Notes under the pieces: generated by a model
Database searches by the model: none
Seen by the model: the letters and a program-made list of their open reading frames with translations, nothing else
Told to the model about the DNA's origin: nothing
Made by a program: the position numbers and the translations under genes
Part shown: positions 1-22,448 of the stretch, one piece after another
Layout: the number at the start of each line of letters is the position of its first letter
Position numbering within the stretch: the first letter of the stretch is position 1
Source: Bacilli bacterium
GTDB lineage: Bacteria; Bacillota_I; Bacilli_A; RF39; UBA660
DNA length: 49,482 nt
Assembly: GCA_017478105.1 (NCBI GenBank)
Contig: JAFVEF010000013.1
Location: 1 to 49,482 of the forward strand
Reading direction: 5' to 3'

Positions 1-98
1 ATTTTGTAACAGATGATGATAACAAATATTTAACAGATTTCTTAAAATCAATTAATGTGGATTTAAGTCAATGTGCGAAACCTAATTACGGAGATTAA
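1..98 (+). CDS. 3' end of a cargo gene, hypothetical
   Basis: An open frame enters from the left edge (first full codon at 3) and stops with TAA at 96-98. About 31 residues are visible, beginning FVTDDDNKYLTDFL and ending NYGD. Too little is present to recognise a family, and it does not look like the N-terminus of YabG. The inverted repeat at 147-178 could end its transcript. Confidence 0.45.
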   Translation, partial: FVTDDDNKYLTDFLKSINVDLSQCAKPNYGD

Positions 99-146
99 AA
101 CAATCGTAATATTAAGATATTCCGTTCGCAATATGGATATAAGATG

Positions 147-184
147 AAGAGATTAGAATAAAGTTATTTTAATCTCTTTTAATC
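147..184 (+). terminator. Weak terminator-like hairpin
   Basis: AAGAGATTA (147-155) pairs perfectly with TAATCTCTT (170-178). The tail after it is only moderately T-rich, so termination efficiency is uncertain. It lies between the end of the left-edge gene and the lipoprotein gene. Confidence 0.4.
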
Positions 185-227
185 TGATTGGTAAAATATG
201 ATATAATCATTTTGGGAGATGAGAAAT

Positions 228-743
228 ATGAAAAAAAACATTTCGTTACTATTAATTCTTATAATGGTTATAGGAATAACTGGTTGCAACAAAAGTGATG
301 AAAAAAACAATACAAGTAATAAAGATAATGGATCAGTAGAGATTAAAGAAAACAAGGTTCAAGGAAAAACAATGGTGGATGATGAATTAATTACTATTAT
401 TTACTATGAAAAAACAATGAAAGGACAATATCCTGCTGTTAAATTTAATGTTAAAAATAATTCGAATAAAGAAATGAGCATTGAACCATTGGGAATAATA
501 AATAATATAGAAATGACTGGAAGATTTATAATATCTAATTCTAAAGGTCAATGGGCTTCTCCAAATATAGAATTTAACTCTGGAGAATCATATGATCTAT
601 ATTTCGGTTATATGGATAATTACTCCAAAGAACAATTGGACTTTGAAAAATTTGTTGATATGGATTTAACATTTGCTGTTTCTGAAAAAAATGAATATGG
701 TGGATGGAGTCATATTAAAGATTATAAAGTACATATAAATTAA
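228..743 (+). CDS. Small lipoprotein, function unknown
   Basis: The protein of about 171 residues starts with a lysine-rich n-region and a hydrophobic core and has a lipobox ending ITGC, so it should be lipid-anchored on the outer face of the membrane. A low-complexity Asn/Lys/Asp-rich linker follows. The rest (YPAVKFNVKNNSNKEM, later NSGESYDLYFGY) has the alternating pattern of an Ig-like beta-sandwich, as in DUF4352-type lipoproteins; that is a weak inference. ATG 228 is chosen over ATG 219 because the ribosome binding site GGGAGATGAG (214-223) sits correctly before 228 and overlaps 219. A TATAAT at 202-207 may be its -10 box. Confidence 0.75.
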   Translation: MKKNISLLLILIMVIGITGCNKSDEKNNTSNKDNGSVEIKENKVQGKTMVDDELITIIYYEKTMKGQYPAVKFNVKNNSNKEMSIEPLGIINNIEMTGRFIISNSKGQWASPNIEFNSGESYDLYFGYMDNYSKEQLDFEKFVDMDLTFAVSEKNEYGGWSHIKDYKVHIN

Positions 744-763
744 AAAGATAAATATAAAGCTTT

Positions 764-783
764 CGCAATAGGTTGCTATTGCG
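764..783 (+). other. Perfect 8-bp hairpin
   Basis: CGCAATAG (764-771) and CTATTGCG (776-783) pair around a GTTG loop, just before the terminator at 792-816. There is no T-run, so it may be an RNA-stabilising hairpin or a protein or recombinase site near the integrase gene. Confidence 0.4.
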
Positions 784-791
784 CAAACCCT

Positions 792-816
792 AACAGACTG
801 AAAAAGTCTGTTTTTT
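792..816 (+). terminator. Intrinsic terminator after lipoprotein gene
   Basis: AACAGACT (792-799) pairs with AGTCTGTT (805-812), followed by T residues to 816. The TATAAT directly after it (819-824), preceded by TGG as an extended -10, probably drives the tyrosine recombinase gene. Confidence 0.8.
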
Positions 817-818
817 GG

Positions 819-824
819 TATAAT
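819..824 (+). promoter_or_regulatory. -10 element of the tyrosine recombinase promoter
   Basis: TATAAT at 819-824 is preceded by GG, within a TGG extended -10 context. No good -35 is seen because the upstream bases form the terminator stem. It lies 28 bases before the chosen start codon. Confidence 0.45.
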
Positions 825-851
825 ACCTCTTTAGGAAAGGGGGGATTGTAC

Positions 852-1817
852 ATGAATGAGAATGCAATTAAGTTAATCGGAAATGAAATGATAAAATATC
901 TTAATAATTATCAAATGTCAAAATTAAATGAAGTATTGCATAAAACTATAGATTTTGATTATTCAGATAACATTTCTAATAAAGAATTTTTAAATAGATT
1001 TCTAAATGCTAAAAGATTAGAAGGAATATCAAATAAAACATTGGTTAACTATGAAAGATATATACTTAAAATGTATGATTCAGTTATGAAAGATATAAGA
1101 ATAATAGATGCTAATGACTTAAGAAAATTCTTATCAGATTATCAAAATGCAACTGGCTGTATAAATTCATCTATGGAAAATATTAGATGCTCTTTAGCAA
1201 GTTTCTTTAGTTGGCTTGAAAAAGAAGACTACATTTTGAAAAGTCCTATAAAAAAGATAAACAAAATAAAATCTGACATAAAAATAAAAGAAATATATTC
1301 TGATGAAACACTAGAAAAGTTGAGAAATACTTGTAATAATAAAAGAAATTTAGCAATTATTGATTTACTTATATCTTCTGGAATAAGAGTAAGTGAGTTA
1401 GTACATATAAATATTTCTGATCTTAATTTTGATAATTGTTCTTGTAAGGTGTTTGGTAAGGGAAATAAAGAAAGAGAAGTTTATTTTGATGCCAAAACGA
1501 AATTACATATTCAAGAGTATTTAAAATCTAGAACTGATAATGAATCTGCATTATTTATAAGCAATATTAAACCACATAAAAGAATTGGTACTAGAGCAGT
1601 TGAAATGATGCTTAATAAGTTAGCTACTCAAATTGAGATAAATGATGTTTATCCTCATAAATTTAGAAGAACACTAGCAACTAAAGCAATTGATAAAGGT
1701 ATGCCTATTGAACAAGTTCAAAAATTATTAGGACACACAAAAATTGATACAACATTGCATTATGCACAAGTTAGTCAAAGTAATGTAAAAATATCACACA
1801 AAAAATATATATGCTAA
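852..1817 (+). CDS. Tyrosine recombinase, XerC/XerD type
   Basis: A 321-residue protein with the two-domain layout of phage-type integrases: an N-terminal SAM-like core-binding domain (roughly residues 40-135) and a C-terminal catalytic domain. Catalytic signatures are visible: Arg in SGIRVSEL, the beta-hairpin Lys in GKGNKER, HKFRRT, LGHTKIDTTLHYAQV with the second His and the nucleophilic Tyr. It should cut and rejoin DNA at short inverted sites. ATG 852 is preferred over TTG 846 because the AGGAAAGGGGGG stretch ends seven bases before it. It is distinct from the serine recombinases at the other end of the island, so it may belong to an older nested insertion or act on an internal invertible or excisable segment. 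No obvious site for it was identified. Confidence 0.92.
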   Translation: MNENAIKLIGNEMIKYLNNYQMSKLNEVLHKTIDFDYSDNISNKEFLNRFLNAKRLEGISNKTLVNYERYILKMYDSVMKDIRIIDANDLRKFLSDYQNATGCINSSMENIRCSLASFFSWLEKEDYILKSPIKKINKIKSDIKIKEIYSDETLEKLRNTCNNKRNLAIIDLLISSGIRVSELVHINISDLNFDNCSCKVFGKGNKEREVYFDAKTKLHIQEYLKSRTDNESALFISNIKPHKRIGTRAVEMMLNKLATQIEINDVYPHKFRRTLATKAIDKGMPIEQVQKLLGHTKIDTTLHYAQVSQSNVKISHKKYIC

Positions 1818-1842
1818 AAAAGATTATTCATAATTTTGTTAA

Positions 1843-1875
1843 TAAAAAAACAATTCCGATACTGCTGGAATTGTT
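1843..1875 (-). terminator. Intrinsic terminator for the minus-strand gene
   Basis: AACAATTCC (1849-1857) pairs with GGAATTGTT (1867-1875). On the minus strand the stem is followed by a run of T (the A-run at 1844-1850), so it ends transcripts of the 1997-2614 gene about 120 bases after its stop codon. Confidence 0.75.
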
Positions 1876-1996
1876 ACGACATCAATCGACAAAACTGCAT
1901 CAATTGATAGTTAAATAATATCAAGAAATAATTGTGTTGTCAATTTTAATTCGCAACTCTGTACTAGCAGTTGTATATTCGGCTATTTGGTGGTAA
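1876..1996 (-). other. Untranslated tail between terminator and minus-strand gene
   Basis: About 120 bases lie between the stop codon of the minus-strand gene and its terminator. They contain a short inverted repeat (ATCAAT near 1881 with ATTGAT near 1901) but no reading frame with a ribosome binding site. This may simply be a 3' untranslated region. Confidence 0.3.
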
Positions 1997-2614
1997 TTAA
2001 TCTTTACAATTAAAACTTGCTATTCTTTTATTTAATTCATCACAATGCTTATCAATTTTTTTAGTTAAGTAATCTAATATATATTTAGCACTTTTATCTT
2101 TATATTCAGTTCTTAAATTATTGTAATACGATTCTGCTTCTTCGTAATTATCAAATGTTTTATGAAAATGTTGTTGAGTCCATATTTCAGCTGGAACAAA
2201 TTCTACTCTCATATATACTTCATATTCAATTACTGGAAAATGAATACCCCCACAGTCTGCAATAATATTTCTTTCAGTATATTTTTGTTCAAAGAAGATG
2301 TGAGTTTTAAACTCTCCATGTTTATAACCTTTATGATCTATTTCTTTATCACATTTTTCATCTTCAGTTAATAAAGACATTTTGTGTTCTGCTTCTTTTT
2401 TTAATTTTCTCATTGTTCTACTATCTTTACAATCTTGAAAGAAATCTTTAATTTTAGTTTTAAAGGTAGCATTTGCTTCTCTTTCTTTGAAGTCCTCACT
2501 CATTTTTATTATTGCAGCTTGAGCATGATTTTTTTCAACATATTCAAGTTCTTTTTCTTTTACAAGAAATGTGCTAAACATATCATCATTACTATCGCTT
2601 TTCTTTTTTTGCAT
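1997..2614 (-). CDS. Hypothetical protein, charged and partly coiled
   Basis: A 205-residue protein that I do not recognise. Its N-terminal 90 residues are strongly charged and helical (KEKELEYVEKNHAQA, then TMRKLKKEAEHKM), and the middle has beta-like segments around GGIHFPVIEYEVYMRVEFVPAEIW. The C-terminus is helical again (ILDYLTKKIDKHCDELNKRI). There is no signal peptide or membrane segment. The start at 2614 has an AAGGAAGGAAG ribosome binding site about 11 bases upstream. It is divergent from the XRE regulator at 2713, which may control it. A phage or plasmid accessory role is likely but not shown. Confidence 0.6.
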   Translation of the reverse strand: MQKKKSDSNDDMFSTFLVKEKELEYVEKNHAQAAIIKMSEDFKEREANATFKTKIKDFFQDCKDSRTMRKLKKEAEHKMSLLTEDEKCDKEIDHKGYKHGEFKTHIFFEQKYTERNIIADCGGIHFPVIEYEVYMRVEFVPAEIWTQQHFHKTFDNYEEAESYYNNLRTEYKDKSAKYILDYLTKKIDKHCDELNKRIASFNCKD

Positions 2615-2712
2615 AATTCACTAATCTTCCTTCCTTTTAAATTATCATTTCAGCGATACCAATTCGTGTTTATTTTTATAAAAAAAGATTAAACTAGAAC
2701 TGGTGGTGTTAG

Positions 2713-2970
2713 ATGATAAAAGTTTCAAACATCCGTAAAGTTTTAGGTGCTAATGTTAAATATTATAGATACCAGATAGGATATACTCAAGAACAATTAG
2801 CCGAAAAATGTGAATTGAGTCCCAGATATATTAGCGATATTGAAAATAATAAGGGTAATATTTCAGTCGATACCCTAGAAATAATCGCTAATAATTTAAA
2901 AATAGAATCATATCTATTAATAAAACCACAAAAGCATCCAACTTTACCTAAAAGAGTAAATATGAAATAA
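2713..2970 (+). CDS. XRE-family HTH transcriptional regulator
   Basis: An 85-residue protein that is almost entirely one Cro/C1-type helix-turn-helix. The pattern includes VKYYRYQIGYTQEQLAEKCEL, SPRYISDIENNKGNISVDTL and EIIANNLKI, matching the lambda-repressor fold. Such small proteins act as dimeric operators' binders in mobile elements. The gene is divergent from the hypothetical gene at 1997-2614, so self-regulation of the shared intergenic region is likely. The stop codon lies inside its terminator (2951-2981). The target sequence is unknown; a recurring motif upstream of several island genes is a candidate. Confidence 0.9.
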   Translation: MIKVSNIRKVLGANVKYYRYQIGYTQEQLAEKCELSPRYISDIENNKGNISVDTLEIIANNLKIESYLLIKPQKHPTLPKRVNMK

Positions 2971-2981
2971 CTCTTTTTTTT
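2951..2981 (+). terminator. Terminator overlapping the XRE stop codon
   Basis: AAAGAGT (2951-2957) pairs with ACTCTTT (2970-2976), then T residues to 2981. The stem's right half starts at the stop codon TAA. Confidence 0.75.
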
Positions 2982-3040
2982 ATTATACAATTTTCAATTA
3001 AATTTTCATAGATACTCTCTTTAATAAGTATAACACATCT

Positions 3041-3056
3041 GCCAGCAAATGCGACA
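3041..3056 (+). promoter_or_regulatory. Island motif copy 1 (GCCAGCAAATGCGACA)
   Basis: This 16-base site lies upstream of the HTH gene at 3108 and matches the copy at 13529-13544 at 14 of 16 positions. Looser copies occur at 6298 and 11178, all upstream of accessory genes. It could be an operator of an island regulator. This is a pattern observation only. Confidence 0.35.
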
Positions 3057-3107
3057 TATTTATTTAGCCTTTTAAGATAAAATTATTATATAGAAGGCGG
3101 TGATGAT

Positions 3108-3425
3108 GTGGATAAAGAACAGTTTTCTGATTTGATTAAACAAATTGATTTATACGATTCAGAAAAATATAATAAAGTTCTTGCTGATTTAAAACATAAT
3201 ATTTGTCAAAACCTTAGAATAGCAAGAAAGTTATCTAAAATTGAACCAGATGTAGCTGCTCAATATTTGGGTTTAGAGCCACAATCATTGCGAAGAATTG
3301 AAGCAGTTAATGATAGAGATGAATTTTCAACAAAAGTATTTATAATGGCTGTTATCTTTTATAATCAAGATGCTAATTTTTATTTTAAAAATTGGGAAGA
3401 AAATGAAAAGTTATTAAATAACTGA
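3108..3425 (+). CDS. Small HTH (XRE-like) protein
   Basis: A 105-residue protein. Residues about 32-75 (LRIARKLSKIEPDVAAQYLGLEPQSLRRIE in outline) read as a divergent Cro/C1 helix-turn-helix, with a C-terminal tail rich in aromatic residues. GTG 3108 is supported by AAGGCGGTGA a few bases upstream. Its TGA ends at 3425, directly against the stop codon of the convergent reverse transcriptase gene, with no space for a separate terminator. It may regulate the neighbouring operon or the island; that is inference from position. Confidence 0.7.
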   Translation: MDKEQFSDLIKQIDLYDSEKYNKVLADLKHNICQNLRIARKLSKIEPDVAAQYLGLEPQSLRRIEAVNDRDEFSTKVFIMAVIFYNQDANFYFKNWEENEKLLNN

Positions 3426-5480
3426 TTAAAGACCATACTTATCTATAATATAATTAAAAAATTGTTCAAGTTCATACTTTGCTGATTGTGGAATCTTTGA
3501 GGAAAGCAATTGTTTCGGAATATCTATTCGAGATGATTGCTTTTTCTTTCTTATAAAAGTAACTTTTTTCTCTTTTAAGTAGAGTCGTTTAATTACATAG
3601 CCATTTTCTAACCAACATTTAGATATTAGTCCTTTTTTATTTTGATACCAATAACTTTCATATTTATAAAGTGAATTACATAATTTTTCATCTATTATGT
3701 TTTCTATTTCTTTAAAAGTTAATATAAAAGTATATTTGGTGCAAGTAGCAAAATATTCATATAAGTTACTATATTTGCTTCTGTTATAATAAACTTTCGC
3801 TATTTCAGGATCTTTTATTTCTTTTATTATTGTTTCTACATCAATTTTATTTAGATTTGAATAATCAGAATTTACGAATTTAATTTCATCATACTCACAA
3901 AAAGAATGAATATAAGCCATATTGCTTAATGTATTTCCTTGATTTAGATTTTTAAATATAATCTTTCTATGTTGATCAGTTTTAATTTTTTTTCCACAAT
4001 AATAACATTTACCTTCTTGCCGTTGCCATATTGATTTATATTTACCACTAATTTTTATCATTTCTTGTGTATTACATCTAGATTGGAAATATTCCACATC
4101 TAAATAAATATTTTGTTTTATATCAATTCTTGGGTGTTCAACTAGAACAATATCTTCAAGTTTTATTACCCTGATATTTTTGTTAGTTGTTAATGTGAAA
4201 ACATCTCTTTGCTTTTCATCTTTATACCAATATTTTTTAATAATTGTTTTTAATGGCTTTTTTGGATACATTTGCTTTGTTAGATTTAATAATAGTGCAG
4301 ATACAACTACATCTATATGATTAAATGCTTCACCAGCTTCTGTTATTCTGTGATAGGATGCCCAACCATTCAATTTAGCGTTTAATGCTTGAATTAGTTT
4401 CTTCTGCGACCATCTTTTATCGTTATTTAATATTAAATCATATAATTCATTTTCCATTTTAGTTATTGAATTTTTTGAAGGAACACAGTGTATTTGAAAA
4501 TCTTTTTTATAATACCGCCTAGATAAAAATTCAAAACCTGTTGATAAATGTTCAATATGTGTTTTTGTTGGAGATAACTCAAGTCCTCTTTCAGCTGCGA
4601 ATTGTTTCATACACTCTAAATAGTGTTGTGCTTTTTCTTTAGTTCGTGCTGAAATTAAAATATCATCAGCAAATCTAATTGTATATCCATCCCAATAATC
4701 AATATTTTCACTATCTTGCTGGTCATACATTAATTTTTGAATACCATCTAATGTCATATTGCCTATTATTGTTGAAATGTTAGAGCCAAGAGATATTCCC
4801 ATATCATTAGGGAATATTTCATTGTTAAATACAATACCTGCTTTTATAAATTCTTTTAATACATTTTTATTCATAGGAATATTTCTTAACAACCAATCAT
4901 GACTAATAGTATCATAGTATGATTTTATATCACATATTAAAAACCATTCTGGAGCATTTCTTTCTTTTAGCATGTGCATTATTAAAGCATGAACATCAAG
5001 TGCCGATCGTCCTTTTCTAAAAGCAAATGATTTTCTATCAGCAGTGGCTTCAGAAATTGGATCTAGTACCATAGAGTACAGGACTTGCATTGCTCTATCA
5101 AACATTGTAGGAATATTAATTCTTCTTTCTTTATTTGATTTATTATCATGTATTACAAATCTTTTATATGGTTTAGATTTATAATCATCTCTATTTAAAG
5201 CGAATGCTGCTCGCATCTTATCTGCTGATTTAATCCATTTAACTTTATCTATTCCAGGAGCAGAATCTAATTCTTCAGATACTTTTTTAACGGCTAATGC
5301 TTTTGCTCCTAATGAATTAACAATTTCATTAGATAGTTTTTTTACTTCATTATCTCTATGTTTAAATGCTGCAATAGTAAGTAATTGTTGTAATTTGAAA
5401 ACTTTATTTCTTGCTTTTTTCCAATCAAATTCATCCCACATTTTTGATAGCATATCATCTGGAAATTCTATGCCATTCAT
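3426..5480 (-). CDS. Group II intron-like reverse transcriptase with degenerate HNH and C-terminal extra domain
   Basis: A 684-residue protein. The order is an RVT_N-type N-terminal region (about 10-80, ending SAPGID), RT palm and fingers (about 95-330) and a maturase/thumb-like region (about 355-400, NGWASYHRI). An HNH-like zinc region follows (Cys492, Cys495, His504, His525, Cys528), then a further 150 residues. The polymerase triad is present: Asp184 in DIKSYYD and FADD at 270-273. The layout matches group II intron proteins of the CL lineage, which make cDNA and help splicing. The HNH lacks the usual His-His catalytic pair and final CH, so it may no longer cut. The C-terminus (LTFKEIENII, later LENGYVIKRLYLKEKKVTF) resembles the small domain I know as DUF7662. 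No intron domain V or other intron RNA is seen around the gene. Its ATG overlaps the stop of the upstream endonuclease gene (TAATG), implying coupled expression. Confidence 0.9.
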   Translation of the reverse strand: MNGIEFPDDMLSKMWDEFDWKKARNKVFKLQQLLTIAAFKHRDNEVKKLSNEIVNSLGAKALAVKKVSEELDSAPGIDKVKWIKSADKMRAAFALNRDDYKSKPYKRFVIHDNKSNKERRINIPTMFDRAMQVLYSMVLDPISEATADRKSFAFRKGRSALDVHALIMHMLKERNAPEWFLICDIKSYYDTISHDWLLRNIPMNKNVLKEFIKAGIVFNNEIFPNDMGISLGSNISTIIGNMTLDGIQKLMYDQQDSENIDYWDGYTIRFADDILISARTKEKAQHYLECMKQFAAERGLELSPTKTHIEHLSTGFEFLSRRYYKKDFQIHCVPSKNSITKMENELYDLILNNDKRWSQKKLIQALNAKLNGWASYHRITEAGEAFNHIDVVVSALLLNLTKQMYPKKPLKTIIKKYWYKDEKQRDVFTLTTNKNIRVIKLEDIVLVEHPRIDIKQNIYLDVEYFQSRCNTQEMIKISGKYKSIWQRQEGKCYYCGKKIKTDQHRKIIFKNLNQGNTLSNMAYIHSFCEYDEIKFVNSDYSNLNKIDVETIIKEIKDPEIAKVYYNRSKYSNLYEYFATCTKYTFILTFKEIENIIDEKLCNSLYKYESYWYQNKKGLISKCWLENGYVIKRLYLKEKKVTFIRKKKQSSRIDIPKQLLSSKIPQSAKYELEQFFNYIIDKYGL

Positions 5481-6226
5481 TATGAAACCTCAAAATCCAT
5501 TTCTATGCTTATTGGACAATGATCTGAACAGTCTATTTCACTATGAATTTTAGAATCAATTAAATTTTTTAATAGGTATTCTGAGATTAAAAAGTAATCT
5601 AATCTATAACCCAATTTATTTTCTTTATCATCTTTTCCAACATTCCACCAAGTATAACAATTTGTTTCTTGTGGATATAAATATCTATATGAATCAACAA
5701 GTCCACTATTTAATAGATTTTCAAATTCACATTTTTCATTATCTACAAAATCATTATTATAGCAACAATCGTTACTATCAATATTTGAATAAGCTATATT
5801 AAAGTCCCCACATATTATAACTGGTTTCATTATTTCTAATTTTTTTATATAATTATAAAATTCATCATCCCAGTTCATTCGATAGTCTAGTCTTATAGAA
5901 GATGCTTTAGAATTAGGAACATAAACATTAACAAGATAAAAGCATTCGTATTCAACTGTCATGATTCTTCCTTCACAATCAAAATCATTATTAAAATCAT
6001 AATTTATGGACAAAGGCTTCTCTTTTGTAAAAATTGCAGTTCCTGAATAACCTTTCTTCTTACAAAAGTTCCAATATGAATAATAGTTTTCTAATTCAAC
6101 AAGTGTCTTTTGACATTTAATTTCTTGTAAACAAATTATATCTGGTTTTAGAATAAATAAAGAATTCTTTATACCTTTTTCTATTGCAGAATTTAATCCA
6201 TTAACATTTAATGAATAAATCGTCAT
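5480..6226 (-). CDS. ExoIII/APE-type endonuclease (EEP superfamily)
   Basis: A 248-residue protein, full length for the ExoIII/ExoA family. All active-site motifs are present: Asn7-Asn9 region SLNVNGL, LQEIK with Glu35, VNVYVPN near 99-105, GDFN with Asp141 and Asn143, RLDYFLIS near 208-215 and SDHCPI with Asp235-His236. The family cleaves DNA at abasic sites or acts as a 3' exonuclease with a metal ion. Here the gene is the first in a minus-strand operon and overlaps the start of the RT gene by TAATG, so it is unlikely to be a plain repair gene. A role in supplying a nick or trimming cDNA ends for the RT is inferred. Its -10 is probably at 6262-6267. Confidence 0.93.
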   Translation of the reverse strand: MTIYSLNVNGLNSAIEKGIKNSLFILKPDIICLQEIKCQKTLVELENYYSYWNFCKKKGYSGTAIFTKEKPLSINYDFNNDFDCEGRIMTVEYECFYLVNVYVPNSKASSIRLDYRMNWDDEFYNYIKKLEIMKPVIICGDFNIAYSNIDSNDCCYNNDFVDNEKCEFENLLNSGLVDSYRYLYPQETNCYTWWNVGKDDKENKLGYRLDYFLISEYLLKNLIDSKIHSEIDCSDHCPISIEMDFEVS

Positions 6227-6393
6227 AATATCACCCTCAAATTCTGTTATTTCTCATGTATATTATACCATTTATAGTTAAAATAATCGGCAGTTTTGCC
6301 GAAAAATGGCAAAAAAAGAAAAAAATGAACTCATATCACAGAAAATATTCAAAAATAATGATATAATATTAGTTGATGGAAGGACGGATTTTA
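6227..6393. promoter_or_regulatory. Divergent promoter region with hairpin and island motif
   Basis: The region separates the endonuclease-RT operon (minus) from the gene at 6394 (plus). On the minus strand TATAAT (complement of 6262-6267) has a TGG extended -10. On the plus strand TATAAT at 6362-6367 has a TGA extended -10. Between them CGGCA...TGCCG forms a short perfect hairpin (about 6288-6301), and the motif GCCGAAAAATGGCA starts at 6298. Both directions could be controlled from here. Confidence 0.55.
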
Positions 6394-6978
6394 ATGATTG
6401 ATATTCCAAGACCAAATAAGAGAATAATTAAAGATTATTTAATAAAATGGGATAATTTAGAAGATCACTATATATGGCAAGAAAGCAGTCTTGATAAATT
6501 ATTTCACGATGATTACAAATATAATAATGATTTGAATGAAATACTTATTAAATGTAGTTGTTTAAATGATTTTTATAGTACTAATATATTTCTCATATAC
6601 CCTGTAGCTAAAAAAATCTTTGATTTAAAAGTTGATAATAGATTGCAAAACGGTGATGATTCATTGGTTAATGATATAGCACATGTTAGTATTAATGGGA
6701 AAGAAAAAGTATTTTATTCGTTCGCATCTAAATATTGTAGTCATCATAATGCATTAGATTTTCCTATTTATGATTACTTTGTTGATAAAATGCTATGGCA
6801 TTTTCAAAAATTAGATACCTTTTCTGATTTTAAAAAAGATGACTTGAAAGATTATATAATTTTTAAAAAGGTATTAAAAGATTTTAAAAAATTCTATGAT
6901 ATTGATGAATTCAATTTAAGAGATATTGATAAATATCTATGGATTGCCGGTAAAGAATATTTTCCGAAAAAATACTAA
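6394..6978 (+). CDS. Conserved hypothetical protein
   Basis: A 194-residue protein starting MIDIPRPNKR. It has a helical pattern with a Cys/His/Trp-containing middle (VFYSFASKYCSHHNALDFPIY) and a C-terminal charged helix region (FKKVLKDFKKFYDID). I do not recognise a named domain. The FASKYCSHH...PIYD stretch recalls a family of unknown-function proteins in accessory regions, from memory only. ATG 6394 is preferred to TTG 6373 or ATG 6376 because GGAAGG (6378-6383) sits at a suitable distance. It is divergent from the endonuclease-RT operon and followed closely by the hydrolase-like gene at 6987. Confidence 0.65.
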   Translation: MIDIPRPNKRIIKDYLIKWDNLEDHYIWQESSLDKLFHDDYKYNNDLNEILIKCSCLNDFYSTNIFLIYPVAKKIFDLKVDNRLQNGDDSLVNDIAHVSINGKEKVFYSFASKYCSHHNALDFPIYDYFVDKMLWHFQKLDTFSDFKKDDLKDYIIFKKVLKDFKKFYDIDEFNLRDIDKYLWIAGKEYFPKKY

Positions 6979-6986
6979 ATGTTATT

Positions 6987-7598
6987 ATGAATAAAGAATT
7001 TGATGAAATTATAAATAGTAGATTTAATGAAAAAATAATGATTGATTATGGAATTATGAAAGGGAATAATAGAATTATATTTATTAAGAGTGGTCAAGAT
7101 GGCACTATTTATGGATACCAAAATAAGTATTTAAACATTGCTCACATTATAAATAAAAAATATGGTTATACAGTAATTTGTTCATCCAACCCTTTTGATG
7201 GGACTAATCCTTTAGATAATGCAATGAATATCATAGAAGAATATTGTAATAAAAATAATTATAAAGATTATGAGATATATTATATGGGACATTCAAATGG
7301 TGCAATAATAGGAGCACAATTTGGTTATAAATATCCCAAAATTAAAAAAATGCTATTGATTAATGCTCCGTTAATGATTAATTATCATAAAACAAAAGAA
7401 GGTTTGTTAAAATTCAGTCAAGATAAAATAACTATGATATATGGAGATTTAGATCCATCATATAAATATGTTGAGTTATTAAATAATATAAAAAATAAAA
7501 AAATAAATTATTTGGTAATAAAAGGACAAGATCATCATTTTTCAAAAAACAATTATGACTTTTCTCAATTACCAATTAAATATTTGCTTAATAATTAA
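6987..7598 (+). CDS. Alpha/beta hydrolase-like protein
   Basis: A 203-residue protein. YYMGHSNGAIIGAQFG contains a nucleophile elbow with Ser103, DLDPSYKYV at about 154-162 offers the acidic residue, and GQDHHFS at 180-186 the catalytic His, in the order expected for alpha/beta hydrolases. There is no signal peptide, so it should act in the cytoplasm as an esterase, thioesterase or peptidase-like enzyme. The substrate cannot be told. It is shorter than typical family members (about 250), with the strand order compacted at the N-terminus. The start has no strong ribosome binding site and lies 8 bases after the preceding stop, suggesting translational coupling. Confidence 0.75.
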   Translation: MNKEFDEIINSRFNEKIMIDYGIMKGNNRIIFIKSGQDGTIYGYQNKYLNIAHIINKKYGYTVICSSNPFDGTNPLDNAMNIIEEYCNKNNYKDYEIYYMGHSNGAIIGAQFGYKYPKIKKMLLINAPLMINYHKTKEGLLKFSQDKITMIYGDLDPSYKYVELLNNIKNKKINYLVIKGQDHHFSKNNYDFSQLPIKYLLNN

Positions 7599-7618
7599 TT
7601 TTTATCGAGGTGAAGAAA

Positions 7619-8542
7619 ATGGATAAAATAAAATATTATAAAAATAATGGTGAATTAGACCATGAAGAATTATTATCTGAAGACACTTTAGGTGGTACTG
7701 CAGGAATGTTAATAAAATGCTATATGAATGACGGAACTACTAAAGTTGGCTACTCCGATCCATATAGAATGCATGAAAAGTATGCTTATAATGATTTTGT
7801 TCATAACTATATATATTTATGGACATGGGATAATTTAGATGAAGAAAAACACGAACTTGTTGGAAATGAAGAAACAAAATATAACCAAACTTTTGAAAAA
7901 GTAATAATTAAAAAAATAAATACAATTGATGCAATGTTATTTTCTAATCCTAAATGGGGAGGAAGATTAACAAATAAATTTGAGTTTAAAAAAGTAGATA
8001 AAAAAGAATCGTTACCACCATATATAAAATTATTTGAAAAACATAATTTTGATTATAAAGATGATAAATATGATGTATTTGGATTTAAAGCAAATCCACG
8101 AGAAGTAGATCAATATGTTATTGAAAATGATTTAGGTGGTACAGGAGATATATTTTGGATATTTAGTATAAATGACAGATTGATTAAAGTTGCAAATACG
8201 GGCAATTTTGATATGGATGCTTATAGTGCTGTAGTTGTGGATAATTATTTGCATTTTATAACAGACTTTGATTATTATAGAATCAATATGGATACATTGG
8301 AGTTAGATGGTTTTGTTGAATTAAGCGGAGCTCCATTTGATGAATTATATAAATTCTATAATGGTATGGTAGTTATAGGAGAAATGGATATTGTTTATAT
8401 TGAAGATGATATGGTTAAATGGAGAGCTGGTAATGGTGGAATAATTGATTATGCCATTGTTTGTAAAGACAATACAATAAAGGTATCAGAAAGTGAGCCA
8501 TATTCAAGTTATACATTGAATAAAGATGGAAAGGAAATCTAA
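7619..8542 (+). CDS. Hypothetical protein, beta-rich
   Basis: A 307-residue cytoplasmic protein with no recognised domain. It has two LGGT motifs (EDTLGGTAGMLIKCY near the start and NDLGGTGDIFWIF in the middle), each leading into beta-strand segments, which suggests two copies of a small beta domain. The C-terminal part (VVVDNYLHFITDFDYYRI, DELYKFYNGMVVIGEMDIVYI) looks like beta-propeller or WD-like strands. ATG 7619 is chosen over GTG 7610 because GAGGTGAAG (7607-7615) lies just upstream. It may be co-transcribed with its neighbours on either side. Confidence 0.65.
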   Translation: MDKIKYYKNNGELDHEELLSEDTLGGTAGMLIKCYMNDGTTKVGYSDPYRMHEKYAYNDFVHNYIYLWTWDNLDEEKHELVGNEETKYNQTFEKVIIKKINTIDAMLFSNPKWGGRLTNKFEFKKVDKKESLPPYIKLFEKHNFDYKDDKYDVFGFKANPREVDQYVIENDLGGTGDIFWIFSINDRLIKVANTGNFDMDAYSAVVVDNYLHFITDFDYYRINMDTLELDGFVELSGAPFDELYKFYNGMVVIGEMDIVYIEDDMVKWRAGNGGIIDYAIVCKDNTIKVSESEPYSSYTLNKDGKEI

Positions 8543-8553
8543 AAGGTGAAATT

Positions 8554-9219
8554 ATGAGTAATGAAAAAATAAAAGATATATTGATTGTTGTATTTGGAGG
8601 ATTATTTGGATTACACAAGTTTTTAAAAGGCGAAATTGGTATGGGTATTTTATATTTGTGTACAGGAGGACTATTCTTTATCGGTTGGATTAAAGATATT
8701 ATTGAAGTAGTTAAATCATCTATTCATAGTAATGGTAGTCATTCTCTTATGGGGAAAGCTGGAATTCAAACTATTCGTGATGGTAAACTACCCAATATTC
8801 AAGGGACTAATTTAAACTTGTCATCAGATGAAAGTTGTTGTTATATGGATAGAGCTTATACATTTAAAGATAAGACAATAACAACGGGTTATACTGGCAA
8901 ACACAACGGTGTTAGTATTAGGATAGCTAAAGGACTTTCTTATCATACTGGTGCAAGTGGAAGCCAAGCCATAAGACAAACTCAAAGAACAACTTATGAT
9001 GGAGTTTTATATATAACTACAAAAAGAATTATTTATACATCTCAAAAAGAAAGTTTTGATAAAACATTTGATAAGATTACATCTATTCAAGAGGCAAAAG
9101 ATGGGTTAATAATTCAAGTTGGTTCAAATACTTACTCTGTTGTTACTGAAACTCATTCAGAATTTATGAAAGTATTTAATCTTTTGAAACAAATTGAATT
9201 AAATAATGAGGAAGAATAA
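8554..9219 (+). CDS. TM2-domain membrane protein with C-terminal PH-like domain
   Basis: A 221-residue protein. Residues about 8-55 match the TM2 pattern: FGGLFGLHKFLKGEIGMGILYL, then GGLFFIGWIKDI, giving two membrane helices with a short polar turn. The C-terminal half (YITTKRIIYTSQKESFDKTFDKITSIQEAKDGLIIQVG) reads as a bacterial PH-like or GRAM-like beta domain, which usually binds lipids or proteins at the membrane face. This arrangement is common in Firmicutes proteins of unknown role. The stop codon overlaps the ATG of the next small gene (TAATGA), so translation is coupled. Confidence 0.8.
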   Translation: MSNEKIKDILIVVFGGLFGLHKFLKGEIGMGILYLCTGGLFFIGWIKDIIEVVKSSIHSNGSHSLMGKAGIQTIRDGKLPNIQGTNLNLSSDESCCYMDRAYTFKDKTITTGYTGKHNGVSIRIAKGLSYHTGASGSQAIRQTQRTTYDGVLYITTKRIIYTSQKESFDKTFDKITSIQEAKDGLIIQVGSNTYSVVTETHSEFMKVFNLLKQIELNNEEE

Positions 9220-9353
9220 TGAGTGCAAAAAAAGCAAGACCATTAAAAGTTGTTGTTGTAAATCCCCCTAGTGAAGAAGAAGCGAAAAAGAAAATCGCTG
9301 AAATAAACAAATTTTTAAACGAAAAATACAATAGAAATTGGAATGAAAAATAA
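9219..9353 (+). CDS. Small hypothetical protein (44 residues)
   Basis: The frame starts at the TAATGA overlap with the TM2 gene and codes for 44 residues: a basic N-terminus with VVVVNPPSEEEAKKKIAEINKF and an Asn/Lys-rich tail. The NPPSEEEAxxKIAEINKFL pattern looks like a short helical peptide seen in mobile elements of Firmicutes, from memory. Coupling to the upstream stop codon supports translation. Confidence 0.6.
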   Translation: MSAKKARPLKVVVVNPPSEEEAKKKIAEINKFLNEKYNRNWNEK

Positions 9354-9374
9354 GACTACTAAAAAGGACTAAAT

Positions 9375-9527
9375 ATGAAAGAAGAAAATAATAAACCATC
9401 AAGAGAAAAGATTTTAGTAACTTTGTTAAAATTATATGAAAATCAAGAAAATATCAAAATAACTGCTAAAATAATTAACACTAAAAGTGGGAAACAATAT
9501 TTATATAGCAATGGAAAAATAAATTAA
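9375..9527 (+). CDS. Small hypothetical protein (50 residues)
   Basis: A 50-residue frame starting MKEENNKPSREKILVTLLKL with a short AAGGACT-like site upstream. It has a helix (REKILVTLLKLYENQ) followed by two short beta strands (NIKITAKIINTKSGK). It resembles the small proteins that accompany recombinases in Firmicutes elements, without a confident family. It sits between the 44-residue gene and the excisionase-like gene. Confidence 0.6.
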   Translation: MKEENNKPSREKILVTLLKLYENQENIKITAKIINTKSGKQYLYSNGKIN

Positions 9528-9567
9528 AAACACATAAGACTGACAAAACATTAGGGGGAATTATACT

Positions 9568-9771
9568 ATGGAAAAACCGTATTTAAATATTACTGAATTA
9601 GCGATAGTTTTAGGTCAAGGTAGAAGATATGCAGAAAGAGTTATGAAAGATTTAAGAGAAAAAGCTAAAGAAAAGAAATACTATATTCCTGAAAGTGGTA
9701 GAGATATTTTAGTTCCTACCCATTTAGTTAAAGAAGAATTAAAAATAAAAGAAATAATAATAGAAAAATAG
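9568..9771 (+). CDS. Excisionase-like small DNA-binding protein
   Basis: A 67-residue protein with a winged-helix or HTH pattern: LNITELAIVLGQGRRYAERVMKDL followed by a basic helix and a beta hairpin ending DILVPTHLVKEEL. The layout, HTH at the N-terminus and a short wing ending in a V-P-x-x-x-V stretch, resembles DUF3173 and excisionase-type proteins that direct recombinases in integrative elements. The ribosome binding site is AGGGGGA. A role in excision or transcriptional control is inferred. Confidence 0.6.
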   Translation: MEKPYLNITELAIVLGQGRRYAERVMKDLREKAKEKKYYIPESGRDILVPTHLVKEELKIKEIIIEK

Positions 9772-9796
9772 TTGTATTGTTGTGAGGTGATATAAG

Positions 9797-11113
9797 TTGG
9801 GAGTTATTGAATTTTTTAAAAAGATAATTGAAGTAAAAGACAACGACTTATCATTTCTTAATGTTGGCGATATAATTTGGGCTAGAAGATATAAAACAGA
9901 AGAAGAAAAAAATAAAATAAAAATTGGACATCAAGAAAGTCCTTATGTTGTTATAAAAAAGAAAAAAAATAAAGTCTATGGTTTGCAATGCACAAGTAAT
10001 CCACATCAAGAAATTGAGTGGAAGATGATTTATTACCCATTGGGACGACTAAATTATGATATGCAAAAAAACTCATATATAAATTGCTTAAAAGAATATG
10101 AACTAAAAGAAATTCAATTTGTTGAAACTATTGGTAAATTAAACGAGTATGATCTTAATCAATTAAAAAAGCAATTATATATTTTAATTAATAGTCAATT
10201 TCAAATTAAACCTAGTATTGAAAAAAAGTATTTAGATTATAAAATTGGAATTGGTGATATTATTTCATTAAAAAATTATAGATATTATATTTACTCTTAT
10301 GACGATAAGTTTTTATATACATATAGATTAAGAAATCGTACTAGAAAGAATATGAATATTTTAATAAATAATACTTATTATAGTTTTATATTTGAACATA
10401 CTGAAAAAATAAGAATTAAATCAAAATATGAACTTGTAGATACATTTAATACAGGCGAAATAGAAGTAATAAATGAATATAAAGAAAAATATCTTAAAGA
10501 TTTTGAAGAAAAAAGACAAAATGGTAAAGAATTAAGAATTGGTGCAATTATTGATTATAAGGATAAAATGTATTATGTATATGATGAAGATGATATATCA
10601 TTATTTGTTTATCAAATATATACCAATTCTATATCGAAGCCTAATTTGGCAGATATTCAAATTAAGGGTGGAATTTTTAGAACTTTCTTTGCAACTACAA
10701 CTATTAAGAAAGAAAATCTCGAACTAAATGGATATAAAATAAGAAGATGTGCATCAGATGAGGAAATTGAATATAATAAAAAAATATTTGCTTTACCTAA
10801 ATGGCAAAGAGCAACCGAAAGAAAGAAAATATTTAATGCTTCTATACTTTCTGGAAAAAGAAATATAGATGATTTTGTTCCAATGACGATACTAAAAAAT
10901 GAGAACAATAAAAAATACTATTTAGTTATTGATAGAAAAGAAAATATAATAGAAGTTGTTAATATCAACAATATGGGAGATACATTTTATTTTGAATTAG
11001 AAAAAGAACATTGTCCATTCAAATATTATAGAATTTTATCAAAAGAAGAATATGATATATATTTAAGTAAGATAAAAGAATTAAAAGAAATGATAGCAAT
11101 GTTTGATAAATAG
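9797..11113 (+). CDS. Multi-repeat protein with PemK/SH3-like segments
   Basis: A 438-residue protein starting at TTG 9797, which has GTGAGGTGAT six bases upstream. The N-terminal part (VGDIIWARRY, then GHQESPYVVIKK and LQCTSNPH) resembles the beta-barrel of PemK/MazF or SH3-like domains that begin GDIxxx. Similar segments recur: IGIGDIISLKNYRYYIYS near 149, LRIGAIIDYKDKMYYVYD near 247 and FVPMTILKNENNKKYYLVID near 361. So the protein appears built from about four copies of one small beta domain. MazF catalytic residues cannot be assigned, so toxicity is not claimed. A terminator overlaps its stop codon. Confidence 0.7.
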   Translation: MGVIEFFKKIIEVKDNDLSFLNVGDIIWARRYKTEEEKNKIKIGHQESPYVVIKKKKNKVYGLQCTSNPHQEIEWKMIYYPLGRLNYDMQKNSYINCLKEYELKEIQFVETIGKLNEYDLNQLKKQLYILINSQFQIKPSIEKKYLDYKIGIGDIISLKNYRYYIYSYDDKFLYTYRLRNRTRKNMNILINNTYYSFIFEHTEKIRIKSKYELVDTFNTGEIEVINEYKEKYLKDFEEKRQNGKELRIGAIIDYKDKMYYVYDEDDISLFVYQIYTNSISKPNLADIQIKGGIFRTFFATTTIKKENLELNGYKIRRCASDEEIEYNKKIFALPKWQRATERKKIFNASILSGKRNIDDFVPMTILKNENNKKYYLVIDRKENIIEVVNINNMGDTFYFELEKEHCPFKYYRILSKEEYDIYLSKIKELKEMIAMFDK

Positions 11114-11137
11114 ATGGTGTAACAATCATCTATTTTT
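11108..11137 (+). terminator. Terminator overlapping the stop of the repeat protein
   Basis: AAATAGATG (11108-11116) pairs with CATCTATTT (11127-11135), then further T. The TAG stop codon lies in the left arm. Confidence 0.8.
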
Positions 11138-11177
11138 AATTTATTATGTATTATTTTTACCTAAACAGTTTAGAGCT

Positions 11178-11197
11178 GCCAAAAAATGTGGTATAAT
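11178..11197 (+). promoter_or_regulatory. Promoter of the methyltransferase-nuclease operon with island motif
   Basis: TATAAT at 11192-11197 is preceded by TGG (extended -10). Directly upstream is GCCAAAAAATGTGG (11178-11191), a version of the motif seen at 3041, 6298 and 13529. The motif would sit in the -15 to -35 region, well placed for repression. The start codon is at 11226. Confidence 0.5.
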
Positions 11198-11225
11198 TAT
11201 AAATGAAGTGATTGGAAGTGATAAC

Positions 11226-12344
11226 ATGGCTAATAATTCACAATTAACAAATGCAAAAAAAATTAAAGATGATGAGTTTTATACTGAATATTCTGATATT
11301 CAAAAAGAAATAAATGCTTATATAGAATATAATCAAGATGTTTTTAAAGGAAAAACTGTATTGTTACCTTGTGATGATCCTGAATGGTCTAATTTCACTA
11401 AATTTTTTGCTCAAAATTTTGAAAGATTTGGACTAAAAAAACTAATCAGCACTAGCTATGCTAATGATAAAAAGAGTGATGTATATATTCAATTATCGTT
11501 ATTTGAATCGGAATCGCCTAAATTTGATAAGAATAAAACCAATTCACATGGTAAGATATTTACCTTAGACAGAGATGAAAATAAATCAGGTCGTATAGAT
11601 ATTGAAGATTTAAAATGGGAATATTTAAAAGGTGATGGAGACTTTAGATCAAATGAAGTGAAAAAACTAAGAGACGAAGCTGATATAATTGTAACTAATC
11701 CTCCATTTAGCCTATTTAGAGAGTTTATAGATTGGATTTTTGAAGGTAAAAAAGATTTTATAATTTTAGGAAATGAAAATAATGAAACCGATAAAGACAT
11801 TTTTAAGTTAATTAGAGAGTCAAAAATGTGGTTAGGAAAGACTAATGGAGAAATGGCATTTAAGGTTCCTAAAACTTCTGAAAATAGAGAAACAAGATTT
11901 TGGATTGATAAAGATGGTCAAAAATGGCGAAGTTTTGGAAATATGTGCTGGTTTACTAATCTTGATTTAGGACGAAGACATCAACCTCTTAGGTTAATGT
12001 CTATGGAAGATAATTTAAAGTTTAACAAGCCTTTATTGAAGACATTAAAGGAAAAATATAAAACAGATTGCTATCCAGAATTCGATAATTATAATGTAAT
12101 AGAAGTTCCTAGATATGATGCTATTCCTGATGATTATATTGAGCCGATGGCTGTACCAATTACTTTCTTAAAATATCACGATCCTTATCAATTTAAGATA
12201 TTAAATGCTAATGATTTTAGAAAGAATGATAAAATACCTGTTAAAGAACATGGACTAATTAAAGATAAAGAAGGAACTATAAATGGTAAGGCAACTTATG
12301 TAAGAGTTGTAATTATAAAAAGGAGCGAAGAAAATGGAAGCTAA
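11226..12344 (+). CDS. Adenine-specific DNA methyltransferase, EcoRI family
   Basis: A 372-residue protein. It shows the EcoRI-methylase type N-terminus ([14 protein letters not shown], about residues 16-29), a motif I-like loop [13 protein letters not shown] (45-57) and motif IV NPPF at 158-161, followed by FREFI. These are SAM-dependent N6-adenine methyltransferase features. The start is set at ATG 11226 (GGAAGTG upstream and a promoter at 11192) rather than at the longer frame that begins inside the previous terminator. Its end overlaps the start of the DUF262-HNH gene by 11 bases, so the two are co-translated. The pair looks like a modification-restriction module; the recognition sequence cannot be inferred. 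Confidence 0.9.
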
Positions 12345-13497
12345 ATTAAAAACTGATTTAACTGTTAGGGATATAAAAGAAGGTTTTGTTTATAACGAAT
12401 ATGAAGGCAAAGGTTTATTTGGTTGGGGTGGAAAATTAACAATTCAACCAGAATATCAAAGAAATTATATATATGCTGATGGAAAAAAAGATGTTGCAGT
12501 AATTGAATCTCTATTAAAAGAGTATCCACTTGGTCTTATATACTTTGTTAAAGTTGGTGAAGATAAATATGAAATATTAGATGGGCAACAACGAGTAACA
12601 AGTTTTGGCAGATATATAACTAATAAATTTGCTATTAAAGATGAAAACGGAATGGAACAATATTTTGATGGCTTATCAGAAGATAAGAAGAGAAAAATAT
12701 TAAATGCACCATTAACTATTTATATTTGTGAAGGTGAAGAATCTGAAATAAAAGAATGGTTTAAAACAATAAATATTGTGGGTGTGCCGTTAAATAACCA
12801 AGAATTATTAAATGCTATATATTCTGGTCCTTTTGTTACAAAAGCTCGTGAAGAATTTTCTAATCCACAAAATGCGTATTTGCAAAAATGGAGTGCTTAT
12901 ATAAAGGGTGATGTTAATAGACAAGAATATCTTGCTACTGCACTAAATTGGGTAAGTAAAGGAAATGTAGATAATTACATGAGTCAACATAGATATGATG
13001 GTGATATAAATGAATTAAAGACCTATTTTAATAGTGTCATAAGTTGGGCATCTGGAGTGTTTAAAGATGTTAAGTCTGATATGAGAGGACTTGAATGGGG
13101 AAGATTATATGAAACTTATCATAATAACTCTTATGATCCAAATAAAGTATCTGAAAAATTATGTGAATTGTATGCTGATCCTCAAGTACAAGATACAAAA
13201 GGAATATGTGAGTATATATTAGGAGGATGTAAAGATACTAAATTATTAAATATTCGTGTATTTGACGATAATACAAAAAGAATTGTTTATGAGAAACAAA
13301 CTCAAGAAGCAAAGTCAAAAGAAATAAGTAATTGCCCATTATGTGCTATTAGTAATGATAATAATAAAAATCGCATTTGGGAATTAAAAGAGATGGATGC
13401 TGACCATGTTACTGCTTGGAGCAAAGGTGGTTCGACAGATATTAATAATTGCCAAATGTTATGTCAGACACATAATAGAGCAAAAGGAAATAGATAA
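12334..13497 (+). CDS. DUF262-HNH nuclease, partner of the methyltransferase
   Basis: A 387-residue protein. The N-terminal DUF262 (ParB/Srx-like nucleotide-binding) domain has QPEYQR at 38-43 and DGQQRVTSF at 83-91. The C-terminal HNH has a CPLC pair (Cys334, Cys337), DADH at 355-358, Asn372 and Cys377-His380, so the catalytic set seems intact. DUF262 proteins of the GmrSD and BrxU type cut modified phage DNA using NTP; HNH supplies the cleavage. Here it sits directly after an adenine methyltransferase with overlapping reading frames, which suggests a self-protected restriction system rather than a modification-dependent one. AGGAG lies before ATG 12334. A terminator follows at once. Confidence 0.88.
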
Positions 13498-13498
13498 T

Positions 13499-13528
13499 AG
13501 AAGTTGCTATAATGCAATTTCTTTTTTT
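13499..13528 (+). terminator. Terminator of the methyltransferase-nuclease operon
   Basis: AGAAGTTGC (13499-13507) pairs with GCAATTTCT (13514-13522) with one G-T pair, followed by T residues to 13528. Confidence 0.8.
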
Positions 13529-13544
13529 GCCACAAAATGCGACA
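13529..13544 (+). promoter_or_regulatory. Island motif copy (GCCACAAAATGCGACA)
   Basis: The site differs from the one at 3041-3056 at two of 16 positions. It lies directly after the operon terminator and upstream of the structured leader of the sigma-like gene. A TAAAAT at about 13566 may be the -10 of that transcript. Confidence 0.35.
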
Positions 13545-13639
13545 CTTTTTTTAAGAAAATTGTAGTAAAATGTAGATAATAGCATGACATAGCTATAAAT
13601 AATATATCTGTGGTGTTATTAAAAATAGAATTTTTGTAG

Positions 13640-13946
13640 TTAAGTAGTATTTTATTCTATTTTGATTATTATATTATTTAGCTACTTTTTATATGGGTTG
13701 CAGTATTTAACCATATAAAAAATGTCATTGCTCATGGCGAGGTAATGCTTATGAGTGATAAGAAGAAATACTGCAGTACAATTAATCAATTTATTGAAGT
13801 ATTTATTAGGGTGGAAAGTTCCAAACCAATTGATGGAACTTTCTGCCCTTTTTTTTGTTGCCCAAAATTAATTGTTTTTAGGTGTAGAAGCCCACCTTTT
13901 ATCAATTTTGAATTAAAAAAATTTGAAATTGATAGGAGGAAATAAA
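13640..13946 (+). promoter_or_regulatory. Structured leader with strong terminator before the sigma-like gene
   Basis: The leader holds TTTATATGG (13688-13696) pairing with CCATATAAA (13711-13719). In the loop of that hairpin, TGCAGTATTT is complementary to AAATACTGCA about 65 bases further on, offering an alternative fold. A strong intrinsic terminator follows: GAAAGTTCCA (13814-13823) with TGGAACTTTC (13834-13843), GGG/CCC outside it and eight T. A short frame starting MSDKKKYCSTINQF at ATG 13751, with a GAGGTAATG site before it, could be a leader peptide. Another hairpin (TATCAATTT/AAATTGATA) sits before the start codon. This is typical of attenuation control; the signal is unknown. Confidence 0.6.
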
Positions 13947-14423
13947 GTGGCAAAAATGCCTATAAGAAATAAAAGTAAAGATAATCCTTATACATTAGGA
14001 TATGACGAAGATAAACAAGTTTATACTGTAGAGTTTGTTGATAACATGAAAGTTATCCACAAAGTTGAAATATCAGAGAAAGTATATAAAGCATTTGATA
14101 GTTTTGAGTTGGAAGATATTTCTCAAATACATAAATATCGTAAGCACATAGAACATAATGAGATTTATGAAGAAACACTAGAACATAGAATGTTAGAAAA
14201 ACCTATAACTATTGAAGAAGAAGTAGAAGAAAAAATAATGTTAGATGATATAAAAACAATTATAGATTCTTTACCTGATATTCAAAAAAGAAGATTAAAA
14301 AAATACTACTTTGAAGATAAAACTTTCGAAGAAATAGCATTAGAAGAAGGTTGTAGCAAAGTAGCAGTTAAATACAGTATAGATATAGCTTTAGAAAAAA
14401 TTTCACAAAATTTTAAAAATTAG
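13947..14423 (+). CDS. Sigma-70 region 4-like regulatory protein
   Basis: A 158-residue protein. The C-terminal 60 residues (DIKTIIDSLPDIQKRRLKKYYFEDKTFEEIALEEGCSKVAVKYSI in outline) match sigma-70 region 4, with a helix-turn-helix ending in AVKYSID. The N-terminal half is beta-like and charged, without sigma region 2, so it is not a full sigma factor. Such proteins stand next to large serine recombinase genes in many Firmicutes elements and probably control element genes. GTG 13947 is chosen because AGGAGG (13934-13939) lies seven bases upstream. Confidence 0.85.
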   Translation: MAKMPIRNKSKDNPYTLGYDEDKQVYTVEFVDNMKVIHKVEISEKVYKAFDSFELEDISQIHKYRKHIEHNEIYEETLEHRMLEKPITIEEEVEEKIMLDDIKTIIDSLPDIQKRRLKKYYFEDKTFEEIALEEGCSKVAVKYSIDIALEKISQNFKN

Positions 14424-14948: not shown

Positions 14949-15146
14949 ATGTTAAATAGATACAAAGTTAGAATTATAAAAACTTGGGATTTTGAACTAG
15001 ATGGTAAGGATAAATTAGATATTGAAAGGCAATGTATGTACATTATGAACTATACAAAAATACTAGACTTACCAGAGGTTAAAAAAAGATTAAGATTTAA
15101 AGTTAAAAAAATTGAAAGGAAAGATAATAATGAAGAAAATTGTTAA
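14949..15146 (+). CDS. Small protein upstream of mazF, possible antitoxin
   Basis: A 65-residue basic protein (MLNRYKVRIIKTWDFELDG, then DIERQCMYIMNYTKILDL). Its last codons overlap the start of the MazF-like gene by 17 bases, the arrangement of an antitoxin before its toxin. However the fold does not look like the usual AbrB or RHH antitoxins, so the role is inferred from position only. ATG 14949 with AGAAAGGA upstream is preferred over TTG 14943. Confidence 0.55.
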   Translation: MLNRYKVRIIKTWDFELDGKDKLDIERQCMYIMNYTKILDLPEVKKRLRFKVKKIERKDNNEENC

Positions 15147-15474: not shown

Positions 15475-15492
15475 AAAATTCTACTTTTTTTT
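15471..15492 (+). terminator. Terminator after mazF
   Basis: GTAGAA (15471-15476) pairs with TTCTAC (15479-15484), followed by eight T. The mazF TAG stop is within the left arm. Confidence 0.85.
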
Positions 15493-15541
15493 AATTCATT
15501 AAATATAAAAATCGTTCATAGGTTTAAGAAGGAGGAATACA

Positions 15542-15667: not shown

Positions 15668-15676
15668 ATTTGTACA

Positions 15677-15706: not shown

Positions 15707-15754
15707 GTATTTGTTATGTGGAGTTGGTTAAGAAAGAAGAAAGAGAGGTTTGAA

Positions 15755-19703: not shown

Positions 19704-19710
19704 TTTTTTA

Positions 19711-22437: not shown

Positions 22438-22448
22438 GAGGAATGTGC

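Follow-up and report, generated by a model that had tools for sequence, protein, structure and literature searches.

A conserved pairing of an APE/ExoIII-type endonuclease with a group II-derived reverse transcriptase in Bacillota

What a reverse transcriptase of group II intron type is doing in an operon with an ExoIII-type endonuclease, with no intron around it, is the question raised by a locus in a Bacilli bacterium (assembly GCA_017478105.1, contig JAFVEF010000013.1; the whole stretch of 49,482 nucleotides analysed is referred to here as the window). The two genes prove to be one instance of a conserved two-component module, an APE/ExoIII-type endonuclease (EEP) and a group II-derived reverse transcriptase (RT), in which both the ribozyme and the HNH catalysis have been lost. 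In our reading this module, EEP-RT, represents a new class of group II-derived RTs that lack a ribozyme and whose native nuclease has been replaced by an APE endonuclease.

The operon and its family

The operon in the window is made up of the following features.

5480-6226, minus strand: EEP gene, ExoIII/APE-type endonuclease of 248 aa (ORF call and profile matches)
3426-5480, minus strand: RT gene, group II intron-type reverse transcriptase of 684 aa (ORF call and profile matches)
5202-5438, minus strand: RVT_N domain, RT residues 15-93 (Pfam)
4524-5141, minus strand: RVT_1 polymerase domain, RT residues 114-319, with catalytic D184 and FADD 270-273
4227-4463, minus strand: GIIM thumb/maturase X domain, RT residues 340-418 (Pfam)
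3891-4028, minus strand: degenerate HNH domain, RT residues ~485-530, with CxxCG...HxxC zinc ligands retained
3555-3773, minus strand: DUF7662 domain, RT residues ~570-642
6227-6372, no strand assigned: divergent intergenic region 5' of the EEP gene, probable operon promoter region, in which no conserved RNA was found

The preliminary description of the window, made from the letters alone, had an ExoIII-family gene with a complete active site overlapping a 684-residue RT gene at TAATG, with a convergent gene against the RT stop and a divergent promoter at the other end, and all of this holds: the two genes have one base in common within TAATG, the EEP active-site set is complete (N7 E35 Y102 D141 N143 D210 D235 H236), the Asp184 and FADD 270-273 that it gave for the RT are present, a 105-aa convergent ORF ends at 3425 directly against the RT stop and a divergent ORF begins at 6373. 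The RVT_N and GIIM domains, the degenerate HNH zinc finger and the C-terminal DUF7662 of the RT go beyond that description.

The EEP is a full-length ExoIII protein that scores 234.6 bits with the NCBIfam xth model (cut-off 99). The RT matches RVT_1 (104 bits) and GIIM (49 bits) in Pfam, but with the NCBIfam group II RT model TIGR04416 it reaches 238 bits against a cut-off of 300, and it is therefore regarded as a diverged RT of group II type. The closest solved structure is the group II maturase RT of T. elongatus (PDB 6me0 chain C, 432 bits), and with PADLOC a generic RT model comes top at 120 bits, with UG17 at 89 bits.

Homologues were sought in whole genomes, in one genome-contig scan and in eight viral-contig scans, and nine distinct intact RTs, that of the window included, are now recognised, from genomes of Bacillota and from viral or mobile contigs of the gut. 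Every one of the nine has an EEP directly 5' of, or N-terminal to, the RT; in five the two are separate genes that overlap or nearly do so, and in four they form one polypeptide with the order of LINE ORF2.

Window: split genes, one base in common
L002/L003: split genes with a 2-nt gap, in another genus of the same family as the window host, 64% RT identity to the window
L045: split genes, GTGA overlap
L057: split genes, 4-nt overlap
L119: split genes, ATGA overlap
L004: fused, 957 aa, from a Selenomonadaceae MAG
L044: fused EEP-RT
L055: fused EEP-RT (L056 is a near-duplicate contig)
L078: fused EEP-RT

A profile of the family gives at least 936 bits with full-length members and at most 504 bits with ordinary group II RTs, and an adjacent EEP was found at none of 52 ordinary group II loci, one of which has an EEP about 6 kb off. 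The preliminary description would take the pairing as incidental if homologues mostly lacked the EEP or had intron RNA around them; neither was the case, as all nine intact homologues have the EEP, four of them fused, and none of the eight loci scanned has intron RNA (below). The pairing is not incidental. Furthermore fused and split members are intermingled in the RT tree, which argues that the two proteins act together.

The distribution of the family is patchy, with none to two carrier genomes in each sample of 189-395, and a search of 391 genomes from the class to which a Lachnospiraceae genome belongs gave no members. Plasmid and phage collections yielded only RTs of less than 60% identity, with ordinary group II proteins ranked top, and viral contigs scanned with a single protein gave no members, those on viral contigs having been found by alignment-based and EEP-based scans.

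Incomplete and related loci were also seen. In L181 (IMGVR_UViG_3300010163_002133) an ORF of 238 aa from about position 1226 is a remnant in which an in-frame internal deletion has brought the N-terminal ~100 residues of an EEP up against the C-terminal ~105 of a family RT, and a further fused member is therefore implied. All that is left of the RT at 6001-6837 of L170 (IMGVR_UViG_3300006152_000288) is its zinc-knuckle and DUF7662 end, preceded by unrelated DNA; this decayed remnant may be stand-alone or a 5'-truncated copy. L046 has, at 3002-5235, a phage gene of 443 aa in which an EEP domain is joined to other domains; a second EEP gene, which is diverged, comes after it, and there is no RT nearby.

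Ancestry of the two proteins

The preliminary description had noticed no intron sequence around the window RT, and Rfam has no match of any family within window positions 1-14000, even at E<=5. The same is true of the homologues, as group II ribozyme RNA was found at none of eight EEP-RT loci (the window and seven members) and at all eight loci of ordinary relatives; since Rfam detects the ribozyme in every one of those relatives, the intron RNA has been lost in the EEP-RT lineage and not overlooked by the method. In a maximum-likelihood RT tree, which covers the eight members other than the later-found L119 and holds no labelled DRT or retron references, the members form one clade with support of 100/100 and a long stem (0.87). 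The clade is nested inside the radiation of ordinary group II proteins, its sister being a group II protein of Methanosarcina, and the next closest are introns from Lachnospiraceae and viral contigs. On these sequence relationships the ancestor of the RT was a mobile group II intron protein. The RT shares with such proteins the RVT_N, RT and X domains and an HNH-type zinc knuckle, but differs from them in having no intron RNA and no HNH catalytic residues, and in having the EEP and a DUF7662 tail.

Group II proteins nick the bottom strand with their HNH nuclease to make a primer. In all eight EEP-RT members aligned the HNH region retains CxxC...HxxC and lacks the catalytic HH and the final H; most of the ordinary relatives having an HNH domain possess the catalytic HH together with the GG..N stretch and a terminal CH. 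The degenerate region is independently linked to HNH endonucleases by PHROGs, and the top Foldseek matches, Cas9 and Cap5 HNH domains, are consistent with this but non-significant, coming from weak AlphaFold models (pLDDT 60 for the fused protein and 71 for the C-terminal region, both too weak for complex geometry). All eight EEP active-site residues are invariant across the family, as are RT Asp184 and both Asp of the FADD motif, which reads FADD or YVDD among the members. As HNH catalysis has been lost whilst the EEP and RT residues are invariant, the family appears to have swapped its own primer-making nuclease for one of APE type; the structural half of the preliminary proposal is strongly supported, and the view of an APE enzyme in place of HNH is reinforced by the loss of the HNH histidines. 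The DUF7662 domain lies at the C-terminal end in all seven members scanned, and no mention of it was found in the literature searched.

The nearest kin of the linked EEP are true AP endonucleases (ExoA, APE1), all of whose catalytic residues it retains, and it reaches only 1e-17 with LINE-1 EN. Two hosts, G715 and G781, have a separate housekeeping ExoA besides the linked EEP, and the linked copy is for this reason a dedicated one. In the EEP tree the linked EEPs do not group with the ExoA of these hosts, those of the window and L002 fall weakly near host ExoA, and the test of a single EEP acquisition decides neither for nor against it (AU p 0.19). In the window genome, which is 86% complete, the linked EEP is the sole EEP detected.

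Comparison of L055 with L078 gives pS of 0.70-0.77, at which synonymous sites are saturated, and pN of 0.09-0.18, the non-synonymous differences being 0.10 for the EEP, 0.09 for the RT and 0.175 for the C-terminal part. By this measure all three parts are under strong purifying selection. Homology between the window and L003 ends at the RT stop codon, and a conserved flanking RNA was sought up- and downstream of the module and not found, although a poorly conserved RNA may still exist. Since the coding parts are under selection and the flanking non-coding DNA has no comparable conservation, both proteins are maintained and a local RNA partner is not evident.

Genomic setting

There is one copy of the module in each genome or record searched, and no truncated extra copies at the protein level. 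In the window it is part of an island that also contains a tyrosine recombinase (846-1817), a type II restriction-modification pair and two large serine recombinases; the pair, a type II methyltransferase and a DUF262/HNH-type restriction enzyme, is at 11103-13497, about 5 kb from the operon. HsdM is found just downstream of the module in L045, and upstream of it in L044 come an Mrr nuclease and a Y-family polymerase. The L057 module belongs to a prophage, with recombinases on one side and, as the overlapping contig L079 shows, lysis genes on the other, and adjoins an FRG (PDC-S15) gene, whilst those of L055 and L078 adjoin a tyrosine integrase and have the same genomic position. The G781 copy, L119, follows murJ in a region of core genes where no defence gene was seen. 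No empty site was found for the murJ locus, as relatives do not share the downstream gene order and the contig of the nearest one breaks off at this point.

The island in the window seems to have an edge at 15112-18905, where a gene resembling PemK/MazF toxins (by eye) and a tandem pair of large serine recombinases stand directly before yabG-like, tilS and ftsH genes. The G781 copy is likewise near ftsB-yabR-tilS-hpt-ftsH (L120, G781:C46; window 18994-24419), a neighbourhood common to both that may be a hot spot or a coincidence.

Known systems and possible function

Ribozyme-less group II-like (G2L) RTs are known (PMC4244168, PMC4424553), and in the broad sense EEP-RT is one of them, its maturase domain being conserved and its ribozyme absent. 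G2L4 has a YIDD active site and no D and En domains (PMC4244168, PMC12337344), whereas EEP-RT has FADD or YVDD and an En-like zinc knuckle, and an EEP nuclease is described for no G2L RT. No cas genes, as would go with a CRISPR-associated RT, were recognised among the ORFs around members (by eye, with some profile-scanned). EEP-RT resembles DRT/UG systems and retrons as a single-copy RT carried by mobile elements near defence genes, but is not clearly in their sequence classes, and an EEP partner is unreported for them. For a retron msr-msd there was no Rfam match at the window and seven member loci, and the flanking non-coding DNA is unconserved, although a novel ncRNA has a slight chance. 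An EEP-linked class is not mentioned in published surveys of bacterial RTs (PMC4244168, PMC8934634, PMC4424553), and no report of one was found in the subscription-free literature searched; as far as found, the arrangement is undescribed in bacteria.

The likeness to the ORF2 of APE-type LINEs and other non-LTR elements is one of assembly, with an APE endonuclease N-terminal to or just 5' of an RT of group II intron descent and then a Cys/His zinc knuckle, in one protein as in LINEs in four of the nine members, whereas the window has two overlapping genes. The parts differ, however, as the RT is of bacterial group II type (at most 27 bits with R2 and no match to LINE-1 RT) and the EEP of ExoA/APE1 type, and EEP-RT has neither the high copy number nor the UTRs of LINEs. 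The assembly is convergent, not homologous.

How such a module arose and might work can be outlined from its parts. A group II lineage has lost its intron RNA and the HNH histidines and acquired an EEP, with DUF7662 following. The EEP would nick DNA, whether at a favoured sequence, at an abasic site or where the DNA is damaged, to leave a 3'-OH, which the attached RT would extend on a template of RNA, or of DNA as in the snap-back or microhomology synthesis of G2L4, with the zinc knuckle and DUF7662 holding the DNA. Judged from sequence, EEP-RT most likely synthesises DNA from nicks of its own making, and nick-primed reverse transcription with a function in defence or repair is plausible.

What this synthesis would be for is less firmly indicated. 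Single copies, unconserved UTRs and a position as cargo, in many cases close to restriction genes, speak for defence or repair rather than self-mobility; within that pair, the cargo position and the restriction-gene neighbours lean to defence, and the AP-endonuclease character to repair. We take the module to be cargo that may protect its host or the mobile element carrying it, most likely by anti-phage defence, rather than a retrotransposon that spreads itself. Guilt by association is the ground for this putative role, through the type II restriction-modification genes in the window, HsdM by L045, Mrr near L044 and FRG PDC-S15 in the L057 prophage; mobile elements carry defence genes in any case, and the G781 copy beside murJ has no such neighbour. 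Taken together, EEP-nick-primed synthesis by the RT with the module as protective cargo is our best explanation, and we hold it at about an even chance. An RNA that would serve as template was not found.

Repair itself, with the EEP as an AP endonuclease or 3'-end cleaner and the RT filling ends or joining them by microhomology, has a modest chance of being the true function. The kinship of the EEP with ExoA and APE1, catalytic residues included, speaks for it, as do its being the only EEP detected in the window genome, the Y-family polymerase near L044 and the precedent of the domesticated G2L4 RT (PMC12337344). However, a patchy distribution in a mobile-element setting is unlike that of a core repair gene, two hosts (G715, G781) also own a housekeeping ExoA, and the G2L4-type YIDD motif is absent.

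It would seem rather unlikely, more so than repair, that the module is an autonomous LINE-like retrotransposon whose EEP nicks the target and whose RT copies its own mRNA there by target-primed synthesis. The EEP-then-RT order, with four cases of a single protein, would fit, and L170 is a 5'-truncated remnant of the kind that LINEs leave, but such truncation may be ordinary decay since remnants also show internal deletion (L181). Furthermore the module is single-copy wherever searched and L055 and L078 retain the same genomic position, whilst their flanks past the stop codon diverge even from each other, so that a 3' UTR signal is absent.

That the protein still acts in trans, as a maturase or retrohoming factor, on group II introns at other places in the genome is very improbable; the GIIM/X domain is retained, but the RT and X domains have diverged on the long stem branch and we know of no use for an acquired EEP in splicing. 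A host xth gene lying by chance beside a decayed group II intron ORF has a next to negligible chance, for although no other xth was detected in the window genome and the window and L002 EEPs are weakly near host ExoA, pairing in nine of nine cases over distant Bacillota and purifying selection on all parts stand against it, and the four fusions and the control of none in 52 rule it out as a general account.

Bacterial group II introns are the accepted ancestors of eukaryotic LINEs, yet we know of no earlier bacterial example of a ribozyme-dependent element with its own nuclease turned into a protein-only machine of APE plus RT. In the EEP-RT family bacteria offer a comparable endonuclease swap, along with loss of the ribozyme. 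A bolder and tentative reading, which we put somewhat below even, is of a prokaryotic APE-type target-primed RT machine that discarded ribozyme and HNH, lets an AP endonuclease nick DNA and prime cDNA, and so independently re-invented the step thought to lie behind APE-type LINEs, whether as a defence or to write RNA into DNA. At about 950 residues EEP-RT is compact and open to expression and assay; were nick-primed synthesis true it would be a new function for a bacterial RT and a candidate tool enzyme, and were it defensive a new architecture of defence RT that PADLOC models do not recognise.

Finally, two further observations concern the surroundings of the module. An opposite-strand HTH gene and a SLOG (YpsA) gene are found just upstream of it in L045 (4944-5852), L055 (4887-5834) and L078 (4222-5182), and may be regulators. 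L045 also has an Rfam pemK RNA (974-1038, minus strand) by a PemK toxin-like gene on the same mobile contig.
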